Of a stretch of DNA of 7,373 nt, positions 441 through 4,625 are shown piece by piece; the stretch's first letter is position 1; every line of letters starts with the position of its first letter. The notes under the pieces are model-generated. The model was given only the letters and a program-made list of their open reading frames with translations. It was not told the origin of the DNA and did no database searches. Source of the DNA: Pseudomonadota bacterium (lineage in GTDB: Bacteria; CALINM01). Position numbers and translations under genes: made by a program. The stretch spans positions 7,713 through 15,085 of the forward strand of contig JAOAGA010000042.1 in the NCBI GenBank assembly GCA_026415985.1, given 5' to 3'.

Positions 441-500
441 ATATACTCCTTCTTTTACCCGGTATGGTTTTTATCCCTCCTAACCAGCCGGGTTTTTTTT
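441..500 (+). ncRNA. Candidate small RNA with an anti-Shine-Dalgarno hairpin loop
   Basis: The span runs from the predicted start (about 441) to the end of the T-run of an intrinsic terminator (500). The RNA would be about 60 nt: a short pyrimidine-rich 5' tail (ACTCCTTC near 446-453) and one hairpin that is also its terminator. The hairpin loop contains CCCTCCT (475-481), which includes CCTCCT, the core of the 3' end of 16S rRNA, so it could pair with Shine-Dalgarno sequences. Loop residues 470-483 can pair with the ribosome binding site of the SGNH-inositol operon at 4805-4818 with 12 Watson-Crick pairs, one G-U and one mismatch. Small RNAs with C-rich loops acting on ribosome binding sites are known in other bacteria (S. 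aureus Rsa RNAs with UCCC loops, alphaproteobacterial cuckoo RNAs). I recognise no named family. Promoter, hairpin and loop are seen; expression and function are inferred. Confidence 0.45.
457..500 (+). terminator. Rho-independent terminator
   Basis: ACCCGG (457-462) pairs with CCGGGT (488-493), and TGGT (465-468) pairs with ACCA (483-486), separated by a small TA/G internal loop. The apical loop is 469-482, and eight T residues follow (493-500). The T-run is on the plus strand only; past the stem in the minus direction the sequence is A/G-rich, so the terminator works one way. The only upstream plus-strand promoter is at 406-434; no plus-strand gene precedes it within the window. Confidence 0.8.
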
Positions 501-643: not shown

Positions 644-1993
644 ATGAATAAAACAAAAATCGAGTTTGTCTGTCAGTTTTGTGGATATAGGAGCCCAAAA
701 TGGATAGGTAAATGCCCTGATTGTGATAACTGGAATAGTTTTGTTACCGAAGAGTTCAGAAAAGATAGCAGAAAAAGATTTAACAGTACTCACAGGGATA
801 AGGTTATTTCCATTACAGATATTGCTGTAGAGAATATCGAGAGAATAACTACCGGGTTAAATGAGTTTGATAGGGTACTTGGCGGGGGAATTGTCCCTGC
901 CTCCCTGACGCTTATAGGAGGTGAGCCCGGTGTTGGTAAATCTACTATTCTTACACAGGTTTCGAATAAAATTTCTGAAAACAAAAGAAAGGTTCTCTAT
1001 GTGACAGCAGAAGAATCTACAGGTCAGCTAAAATTAAGGGCAGAAAGATTAGGGGCTCTCTCAAAAGACTTTTTTTTAATTGCTGAGAACTGTCTTGATA
1101 CCGTCTTTGATGAGATAAAGAAATTTAGCCCCGAACTTGTTATAGTTGACTCAATTCAAACTGTTTACCTCGAGGATATACCATCTGCTCCCGGTAGTGT
1201 CTCTCAGGTTAGGGAGTCTGCGGGAAAAATCATGGAGTTTGCAAAAAAAACAGGGATAACATTTTTTATTGTTGGTCATGTAACAAAAGAGGGTAATATT
1301 GCAGGCCCAAGGGTACTGGAACATTTAGTTGATACCGTGATATATTTCGAGGGAGACAAGGGGCAGAATTTCAGGATTCTCAGAGCAGTAAAGAACAGAT
1401 TTGGTTCTACCAATGAGATTGGCATATTTGAGATGACAGATAGCGGATTAAGAGATGTATCTAACCTGTCGGATTTTTTTATTTCCAACAGGGTTAAAAA
1501 CGAGCCCGGTAGCTCAATGTTTATTACAATCGAAGGGAGCAGACCTATTGCGGTAGAGATACAGGCATTGGTAGCACAGTCGAATTTCGGTATGCCAAGA
1601 AGAATGGCCATGGGGGTGGACAATCAGAGGTTAAACCTTCTTGTTGCTGTTCTTGAGAAAAAGTTGGATATGCCCCTCTTCTCTTATGATATTTATGTAA
1701 ATGTTGCAGGAGGGCTTAAGATTACCGAGACTGCATCAGATCTTGCTATCGCAATGGCCATAGTTTCAAGTTTTAGAAATGTGCCTCTTAATGGTGAGAC
1801 TATTTTCATAGGAGAGATTGGTCTTTTAGGAGAGATACGTTCTGTAAGCAATTTGGAGGCGAGGCTAAAGGAGGCACAAAATCTTAACTTTCGACGTGCC
1901 TTTATCCCTGAAATCAGGCTAAACAAAATTGTGTTGGAAGAGATAGTTGAAATACCTAAGCTTGAAACGGCTATAGAAATGTGTTTTCTGTAA
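644..1993 (+). CDS. radA: DNA repair protein RadA (Sms)
   Basis: RadA is a cytoplasmic RecA-like ATPase that promotes branch migration and strand extension in homologous recombination and repair. The 449-residue product has the full family layout: an N-terminal C4 zinc finger (C10xxC13 and C24xxC27); a RecA-type core with Walker A GEPGVGKST (93-101), Walker B-like ELVIVDSIQT (164-173) and the RadA-specific KNRFG motif (250-254); and a C-terminal Lon-protease-like domain (about 340-449) with conserved FIGEIGLLGEIR (388-399). Length is as usual for the family (about 450). The ATG at 644 places the zinc finger where it belongs. No Shine-Dalgarno sequence is seen and the -10 box ends 7 nt upstream, so a leaderless transcript is likely. 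The stop codon is followed directly by the next ATG. Confidence 0.98.
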   Translation: MNKTKIEFVCQFCGYRSPKWIGKCPDCDNWNSFVTEEFRKDSRKRFNSTHRDKVISITDIAVENIERITTGLNEFDRVLGGGIVPASLTLIGGEPGVGKSTILTQVSNKISENKRKVLYVTAEESTGQLKLRAERLGALSKDFFLIAENCLDTVFDEIKKFSPELVIVDSIQTVYLEDIPSAPGSVSQVRESAGKIMEFAKKTGITFFIVGHVTKEGNIAGPRVLEHLVDTVIYFEGDKGQNFRILRAVKNRFGSTNEIGIFEMTDSGLRDVSNLSDFFISNRVKNEPGSSMFITIEGSRPIAVEIQALVAQSNFGMPRRMAMGVDNQRLNLLVAVLEKKLDMPLFSYDIYVNVAGGLKITETASDLAIAMAIVSSFRNVPLNGETIFIGEIGLLGEIRSVSNLEARLKEAQNLNFRRAFIPEIRLNKIVLEEIVEIPKLETAIEMCFL

Positions 1994-2594: not shown

Positions 2595-4625
2595 TTAAAG
2601 ATACATACAAGAAGGGTTTTCTTCAATAATTAATGCAAATATGTCAACAAGCTGTGGATCAAACTGAGTACCCGCACATCTTTTTATCTCTTCAAGGGCG
2701 GTCTCTAAATTTAAAGCCTTTCTGTAAGGTCTGTCAGAGGTCATGGCATCAAAGGCATCACATATGGCAATAATACGCGATTCTAAGGAGATTTCCTCAC
2801 CTTTTTTCCCCAATGGATAACCTTTCCCATCATATCTTTCGTGATGCTCTGCAATTATTGATTTTACATCCTCAAGAAAACTTATAGGATCAAGTATCTG
2901 AGAACCAACGAGAGGATGTTCCTTGACAACCTCAAACTCCTCTATTGTTAAAAAACCCGATTTGTTTAATATATTAAGATCTGTTCCGATCTTGCCAATG
3001 TCATGTAGGATTGCTGCGTGCTGAAGAATTTCCATCCTTTTTGGTGTAAGATTTAGTCTCTTTCCTATTTCAAGGGCGTAGCAGGTAACTCTTTCCGAAT
3101 GGCCTCTTGTATATTTATCCTTTGCTTCTATTGCGTTTACCAATGCCCTTATTGTATCAAAATAACTTTTTTGCAAATCGGTATAAAGTTTTGCATTTTC
3201 TAAGGATACGGCGGTTTGCCCTGCTAATGTATTTAGCAACTCAAGTTCATCTTCTGTAAACTCAGAGCCATCGAGTTTGTTGTTTACATTAAGAACTCCC
3301 AATACCTCACCTTTAATTATCCCCGGGCTTGATATTAAAGACCTTGTTTCATATTTATCCTTGCTTATTTTTTTAAATCTCTCGTCTGTTTCAATGTTCT
3401 TTACAATCAGTGGTTTTGCCTCTTTTGCTACCCACCCCGCAACAGAATCCCCCACCTTAACGAGGGTATTTTTAATAATATTTTCGTCCATACCGATAGC
3501 ATATTTGATATAAAGACTATCCTTTGTATCGTTAATCAACATTAAGGAACCCGTTTTTGCCTTCATAATCTGAACGGATTTTTCAACAATCATCTTAATA
3601 ACATCATCTGGGTTTAACACAGTGGTAAGACATCTGCTTATACGGTACAAAATCTTTAGTCTGTCAACTGCCTTTTCCAAATGGAAGTTTTTTTCTTCGA
3701 TGTCTTTTACCATCATCTCTATTTGGTTATTGGCATTTTCAAGTTCCAGAACGCGGGCTTTGAGTTGGGCATTTAATGTCTCCAGCTCAGCCTTATATCT
3801 AAGCTTTTCCTGCATCTTTGCTATCTCATGCTCTTTTTTCAGGTCATTTTCGTGGAACTCTTTGAGTTTATTGACCATAAAATTGAAGGTTTTGGCAAGG
3901 ATACCGATCTCGTTACCAGATGGTATCTTAACTTCTACATTAAGATTTCCCTTACTGGCATCAATCATAGCCTTCATTAAATCCTTAATCGGACAGGTTA
4001 CAAAAAGGGTTATTACCAGAAACGTGAGAATTATCAGGATTGCAAAGGTAATTAAAGAAGAGTAGATCATTTTTTCCAAATTTCTTCTTAAAAGACCGTT
4101 TATGTTTTCCTTAGATATTTCTATGACCAGGGCACCTAACACCTTCTTTGAAGAAGAATGATGGGTAAGACAGGTAGGACCATTAAAAAGCAGATTAACA
4201 ACCCTAAAGCTATCGGCATTTTCGATAATTGCAAACTTTTCTCTTTTGGGTGTTGTCCCATTGTGACAGGATACACACAACTCACTGTTTATAGGGATTG
4301 AAGAACCTTTGTTGGTTTTTTCGCTTGAAATAAGTATCTTGCCCGGTTTATTTAATATATAGATACTTTTTATGTCCCTTTGATCCTTTATGACGTCACT
4401 TATTACATTTTCTACGATTGTAAAATCGTTTCTTTCCATACCATAATAAAGAGACTTCTCAAGAGAGGTACTTAGCTTTGTAACCATGTCTTTTTCATAT
4501 TTTATAAGCTCTCTTTTCTGATAGTTTATAATATAGAAAAAGGATGCCAGGATGATGATTCCTATTACGATGCTGATCTTATACAGGATTTCAAACCAGA
4601 GTCTTCTATAGAGAGGGATGTGCAT
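2595..4625 (-). CDS. Membrane heme-sensor HAMP-GAF-HD-GYP cyclic-di-GMP phosphodiesterase
   Basis: This 676-residue protein is predicted to degrade c-di-GMP in response to a periplasmic signal. In order: transmembrane helix 1 (about 13-34); periplasmic region (about 35-186) with a c-type heme motif CVSCH (C117, C120, H121) and a second, altered motif CLTHH (C152 to H156); transmembrane helix 2 (about 187-210); HAMP (about 208-262); coiled coil (about 256-325); GAF (about 340-482); HD-GYP (about 485-670). The HD-GYP domain has H509, the H541-D542 pair, H570, H594-H595, the DGKGYP signature (599-604) and D623, so it looks catalytically complete. The CxxCH faces the periplasm, where cytochrome c maturation attaches heme, so a redox or gas (NO, CO, O2) signal is plausible but inferred. 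The GAF ligand is unknown. The gene stands alone, convergent with the upstream plus-strand gene, and has no Shine-Dalgarno sequence; a promoter lies just before the ATG. Confidence 0.93.
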   Translation of the reverse strand: MHIPLYRRLWFEILYKISIVIGIIILASFFYIINYQKRELIKYEKDMVTKLSTSLEKSLYYGMERNDFTIVENVISDVIKDQRDIKSIYILNKPGKILISSEKTNKGSSIPINSELCVSCHNGTTPKREKFAIIENADSFRVVNLLFNGPTCLTHHSSSKKVLGALVIEISKENINGLLRRNLEKMIYSSLITFAILIILTFLVITLFVTCPIKDLMKAMIDASKGNLNVEVKIPSGNEIGILAKTFNFMVNKLKEFHENDLKKEHEIAKMQEKLRYKAELETLNAQLKARVLELENANNQIEMMVKDIEEKNFHLEKAVDRLKILYRISRCLTTVLNPDDVIKMIVEKSVQIMKAKTGSLMLINDTKDSLYIKYAIGMDENIIKNTLVKVGDSVAGWVAKEAKPLIVKNIETDERFKKISKDKYETRSLISSPGIIKGEVLGVLNVNNKLDGSEFTEDELELLNTLAGQTAVSLENAKLYTDLQKSYFDTIRALVNAIEAKDKYTRGHSERVTCYALEIGKRLNLTPKRMEILQHAAILHDIGKIGTDLNILNKSGFLTIEEFEVVKEHPLVGSQILDPISFLEDVKSIIAEHHERYDGKGYPLGKKGEEISLESRIIAICDAFDAMTSDRPYRKALNLETALEEIKRCAGTQFDPQLVDIFALIIEENPSCMYL

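Follow-up and report, generated by a model that had tools for sequence, protein, structure and literature searches.

The mazG-radA locus

The window, by which we mean the whole 7,373-nt stretch of DNA analysed here, contains a divergent gene pair, mazG on the minus strand and radA on the plus strand. The 250-nt gap between them houses a candidate small RNA gene (Table 1). The window's first ~75 bases recur immediately before it, on the other side of a run of N, around 7539-7790 of the contig (G000:C98; L121 540-790). These duplicated ends within mazG are probably an assembly artefact marking a scaffold gap. The small RNA is single-copy, no second copy being found in its own genome.

The comparison set consisted of three genomes from the window's phylum: its own (G000), G001 and G002, the last of which belongs to another genus. 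Genome-wide controls were based on about 380-400 kb per genome.

Table 1. Features of the window and of the homologous small RNA locus (window positions unless another locus is named)
Feature	Position	Strand	Basis or remark
mazG-type pyrophosphohydrolase	1-393	minus	runs off the window edge
Sigma-70-type promoter: TTGACT (406-411), 17-nt spacer, TAATAT (429-434)	406-434	plus	sequence
Promoter segment TTGACTTAAAAATCATTTT	406-424	plus	kept in G002
Predicted small RNA, about 55-60 nt	441-500	plus	promoter and terminator positions; G002 homologue
5' tail ACTCCTTCTTTT, unpaired	445-456	plus	carries the first anti-SD-like element
Terminator stem-loop of 12 pairs, 7 of them outer (one bulge) and 5 inner, around a 12-nt loop	457-493	plus	fold
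Loop anti-SD CCCTCCT	475-481	plus	with the next A, equals the loop of the RF01733 atoC RNA
T-run of the intrinsic terminator	493-500	plus	
-10-like TATAAT, its end 7 nt ahead of the radA ATG; SD absent	631-646	plus	
radA/sms	644-1993	plus	595 bits to TIGR00416
HD-GYP sensor	2595-4625	minus	
Other genes: unassigned ORF with a hydrophobic N-terminal stretch, GDSL-like hydrolase, inositol-phosphate synthase, CDP-alcohol phosphatidyltransferase			
Small RNA homologue in G002	L120 about 1350-1404		promoter segment, tail, terminator

Signals of a short terminated RNA

An earlier note on this DNA had described a TTGACT-17-TAATAT promoter followed closely by a strong terminator, with CCCTCCT in the terminator loop and a second pyrimidine-rich stretch, ACTCCTTC, in the tail. 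All of these are present. The fold of positions 441-505 has an energy of -16.5 kcal/mol (z -4.35), and none of 200 shuffled sequences folds equally well. The hairpin at 457-493 reads ACCCGGTATGGTT-[TTTATCCCTCCT]-AACCAGCCGGGT, and ACTCCTTC, the first element resembling the anti-Shine-Dalgarno (anti-SD) sequence, occupies 445-452. Judging by the positions of these signals, the 5' end of the RNA would lie at 441-445 and its size would be ~60 nt. The 3' end of the organism's own 16S rRNA is GGATCACCTCCTTTCT, therefore CCTCCT is the true anti-SD core. In the RNAs of both the window and G002 the anti-SD elements are unpaired with a probability of 0.98-1.0. A plus-strand reading frame of 27 codons (ATG at 464) was rejected as it is not conserved.

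Promoter-like sites are no commoner in the window than expected by chance (24 observed vs 25.8 in shuffled sequence), so the promoter by itself proves nothing. The case for a small RNA rests on comparison, i.e., on rarity and conservation. The hairpin was not picked up in the terminator scan of the window because its 12-nt loop exceeds the 8-nt limit of that scan. Intergenic units combining a promoter and a terminator are rare: there is no other in 382 kb of the window's own genome and there are four in 396 kb of G002, the homologue being among them. The same stretches of the two genomes contain 24 intergenic terminators, and CTCC is absent from all of their loops. The intergenic density of CTCCT is 1.03 per kb in G000 and 0.69 per kb in G002, yet each of the ~55-60-nt RNAs contains two copies (Poisson P about 0.002 and 0.0007, respectively; as the RNAs are homologous, these values are not independent).

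Outside this locus, CCTCC-type matches in these genomes are in many cases antisense images of SD sequences, and the elements described here might similarly mirror the SDs of unannotated minus-strand genes. However, neither genome has a minus-strand start codon at a distance of 4-14 nt from a GGAGG or AAGGAG image, and the mazG start is 50-80 nt off. This highly improbable reading, which also lacks conservation, was rejected.

Conservation in the sister genus

G002 retains the divergent mazG/radA order with the promoter segment, the tail and a strong terminator in between, RadA and MazG being 62% and 43% identical to those of the window. The gap in G002 reads TTGACTTAAAAGTCATTTT...AATAAT...ACCTCCTACCTCCTTCTTTATTAAGGCTACTCTCTTTGAGTAGCCTTTTTTTT, and the 5' tail of its RNA is ACCTCCTACCTCCTTCTTT. 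Exact sites for the pattern TTGACTTAAAADTCATTTT, a segment of 19 positions, occur only twice in the three genomes, and these are the two mazG-radA gaps. The score of the gap-versus-gap alignment was equalled by 3 of 2000 shuffles and was the highest among 146 G002 intergenic strands. A 10-mer in the tail, CTCCTTCTTT, is identical in the window and G002 and lies at a similar distance from the promoter. Taken by itself, the tail match lacks significance relative to shuffled sequence (317/2000), so the significance depends on the promoter segment. The G001 assembly has neither radA nor mazG nor the small RNA, and the locus is thus found in only two genomes.

Two wider uses of these sequences were considered. 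Near-matches to the palindrome-like segment TTGACTTAAAADTCATTTT, taken as a regulon site, are no commoner than those to a reversed control. ACCTCCTTCTTT, taken as a genome-wide seed, is not clearly enriched over a reversed control, and many of the matches inspected turn out to be SD images or to lie in coding sequence.

A very short RNA unit with an exposed anti-SD between mazG and radA, as proposed earlier, is borne out insofar as both its signals and its position are kept in another genus; its size remains a prediction. The proposal that the stem and its CCCTCCT loop form the conserved core is not supported: the stem and loop of the G002 RNA are unrelated in sequence to those of the window, the CCCTCCT loop is not kept, and both anti-SD copies are located in the 5' tail, compared with one in the tail and one in the loop in the window. 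As far as the two sequences tell, the conserved unit is the promoter, the position and a short terminated RNA with two unpaired CU-rich anti-SD elements, and no particular hairpin. Such a pattern fits a trans-acting RNA with a single-stranded seed. Selection may hold the anti-SD elements exposed while the stem and the loop get replaced.

A fortuitous promoter and terminator, with the terminator merely insulating radA and the pyrimidine runs being incidental, would explain why promoter-like sites are as frequent in shuffled DNA and why the tail similarity by itself stays within the shuffle range. It would not readily explain the exact match over the 19-position promoter segment at the same locus, despite the low identity of MazG, the presence of CTCCT twice in each of the RNAs, or the scarcity of promoter-terminator units in these compact genomes. 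We consider a non-functional unit unlikely; the small RNA locus is real and probably functional.

In G002, a 10-bp inverted repeat, TGTTGACTTA ... TAAGTCAACA (L120 about 1315-1326 and 1438-1449), flanks the small RNA unit. Its counterpart in the window comprises only TTGACTTA on the promoter side and GTCAACA past the terminator.

Comparison with known anti-SD RNAs

Both RF01733 and RF02278 have an Rfam gathering score of 50 bits, and scans with a lax threshold were used for weaker matches. The window gives only sub-threshold matches at the lax threshold, and nothing is found around the G002 locus at the gathering threshold. The earlier remark that no described family was recognised calls for qualification. 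All family scores lie below the Rfam cut-offs, but anti-SD sRNAs as a kind have already been described (alpha-proteobacterial ar14 or 'cuckoo' RNAs, betaproteobacterial toxic sRNAs, RsaE/RoxS), and RF01733 has the very loop of the window RNA. The candidate is an unnamed new member within this known class.

The atoC RNA (RF01733), listed from delta-Proteobacteria, has a loop, UCCCUCCUA, letter-identical to that of the window, and both RNAs end with an intrinsic terminator whose loop reads CCCUCCU followed by A. The window hairpin scores 25.3 bits against RF01733, below the gathering score. It is the best match in 790 kb to a model of the atoC hairpin alone (23.6 bits, E 0.05), with all model pairs formed and the stem letters changed; atoC members left out of that model score 45-54 with it. 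The atoC RNA has a two-hairpin layout in which UUGC and a first hairpin precede the terminator hairpin; the candidate RNA of the window lacks the first hairpin, with a single hairpin in its whole unit, and has an extra tail element. Neither radA nor mazG lies beside any of the 31 atoC copies. Since the first hairpin is missing, the scores reach only half of the gathering score and the sister copy in G002 lacks the CCCUCCU terminator loop, homology to the atoC RNA cannot be claimed; the two RNAs would be alike in working.

Within one class, 129 of 195 genomes have atoC RNA matches. CCCTCC is present in the terminator loop of 31 out of 31 copies extracted; the pattern used for picking itself included CCCTCC, yet every locus yielded it. 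The copies examined (L240-L269, L237) have a TATAAT-type element upstream, the first hairpin and their own terminator hairpin. Their neighbours, as read from translations, vary by family: a ferredoxin/hydrogenase-like sensor gene, folK, a ribbon-helix-helix gene or a Spy-like gene. In 29 of 31 cases, mostly from related genomes, the RNA and the gene that follows it share a strand, and cis action is possible. By its sequence features, the atoC RNA, filed as cis-regulatory in Rfam, may itself be a stand-alone anti-SD sRNA of ~80 nt.

RF02278, the betaproteobacterial toxic sRNA family, includes Burkholderia ncS03, ncS05, ncS27, ncS62 and bdhR1 and Bordetella S17-like RNAs, which are free-standing RNAs of 57-92 nt with CU-rich CUCCUCC stretches towards the 5' end and a terminator (PMC4603805, PMC5688073, PMC11722255). 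The G002 homologue scores 27.5 bits, again below the gathering score, in an alignment spanning the whole model from the 5' CUCCU motifs to the terminator; the window copy has no RF02278 match among those listed. The family has a double hairpin with CU-rich unpaired stretches; the latter are present in G002, but the first hairpin is absent, its pairs being broken or deleted.

More distant parallels exist. The NfeR1/ar14 'cuckoo' RNAs of alpha-Proteobacteria carry redundant unpaired CCUCCUCCC anti-SD motifs on stems of varying sequence (PMC10746234). They resemble the candidate in having several anti-SD motifs in unpaired regions and variable stems, but possess three hairpins, each with CCUCCUCCC, and alpha-proteobacterial promoters, and the window has no Rfam match to them. 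RepG of Helicobacter pylori likewise acts through a C/U-rich terminator loop (PMC8295292), but its targets are G-repeats in a leader and it has two stem-loops. Cyanobacterial Yfr1 (54-69 nt) has an unpaired conserved ACUCCUCACAC (PMC2190773), comparable with ACUCCUUCUUU of the window RNA and diverging after ACUCCU, but flanked by two stem-loops. C-rich regions of RsaE/RoxS of Firmicutes pair with SDs (PMC4409812), although this is a distinct RNA with several such regions.

We speculate, with considerable doubt, that short terminator-ended anti-SD RNAs came into being, or were retained, in a number of unrelated phyla (this phylum, the class with the atoC RNA, beta- and alpha-Proteobacteria) as a widespread layer of translational control, the anti-SD elements here being kept while shifting between loop and tail.

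Predicted mode of action and targets

We favour, with a probability of roughly 0.6, a free-standing gene for a trans-acting sRNA of ~55-60 nt which has its own promoter and terminator and would block SDs. Transcription from the promoter would yield a short RNA stopped at its own intrinsic terminator and exposing two unpaired anti-SD copies: ACUCCUUC in the tail and CCCUCCU in the loop in the window, or two in the tail in the sister genus. The RNA would pair in trans with the G-rich SD regions of mRNAs and so prevent ribosome binding. The hairpin and U-tail would serve as terminator and stabiliser, free to drift in sequence while the anti-SD elements remain exposed. Transcription, mRNA pairing, repression and any Hfq role are predictions from sequence. 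As in the anti-SD sRNA class, a promoter and an intrinsic terminator of its own, present as sequence signals in two genera, go together with unpaired anti-SD motifs. This makes it a small RNA gene predicted in a phylum represented by three genomes and having a testable seed.

SDs complementary to the RNA are in use: of the called genes, 129 out of 358 and 129 out of 368 are preceded by GGAG. The sister genus encodes Hfq, which was not found in the window's own genome, 84% complete. Predicted pairing with an extended SD amounts to -14.2 and -20.2 kcal/mol for the two RNAs vs -19.2 for the 16S tail, and across start regions the pairing energies track those of the 16S anti-SD (rho 0.80 and 0.86). 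By these predicted energies, both RNAs appear built to bind SDs.

This close tracking would also suit a global modulator of translation which competes in bulk with 16S rRNA for SDs, or a decoy for a CU-binding protein, in either case without specific mRNA targets. Once generic SD strength is accounted for, no shared target preference is seen among 104 ortholog pairs (about a quarter of each genome; residual rho 0.04, p 0.7), and the related toxic sRNAs inhibit growth of E. coli when overexpressed. However, an RNA of ~60 nt would need very high abundance to rival ribosomes, and the comparable NfeR1 and RoxS possess specific targets; we regard such a general role as unlikely.

For a trans-acting sRNA, the best matches of the loop in G000 include the SDs of three genes (GGAGGG; L185 16267 and 17439, L186 about 5647) which, from their translations, we take to be korA, sucC and sucD. 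In G002 (L227), GGGAGGGG and GGAGGGG precede sucC and sucD, while G001 has GGAGGA instead. These SDs are unusually rich in G, and their GGAGGG class precedes about 3% of called genes. As RoxS/RsaE of Firmicutes target sucCD (PMC4409812), sucC and sucD, and with them korA, may serve as a fair first guess, a lead only, as the genes and the sucCD parallel were chosen post hoc.

INDEPENDENCE and the probable separation of radA from the small RNA

In the two genomes alike, radA follows the small RNA unit in the same orientation, and any read-through would enter it. The promoter could accordingly be imagined to drive radA, with a leader terminator halting most transcripts until a signal opens it, and the atoC RNA, which is similar, is classed by Rfam among cis-regulatory elements. 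Nevertheless, in each genus radA lacks an SD and has a -10-like hexamer of its own, 6-7 nt ahead of the ATG (in G002, TATACT at 6 nt; L120 about 1450-1462), no obvious antiterminator pairing was seen in the folds inspected, and the terminators of the two genera are unrelated in sequence. Attenuation of radA is therefore improbable in our view. With such a hexamer and no SD in both genera, radA looks leaderless, and it is probably transcribed from a promoter of its own that does not depend on the small RNA. The terminator, 60-145 nt upstream, need not govern it.

In the window, mazG also has a -10-like hexamer 6-7 nt before its start codon (393-405) and no SD. This arrangement suggests leaderless mRNAs for mazG in the window and for radA in the two genera, and such mRNAs would escape an SD-pairing block by the anti-SD RNA.
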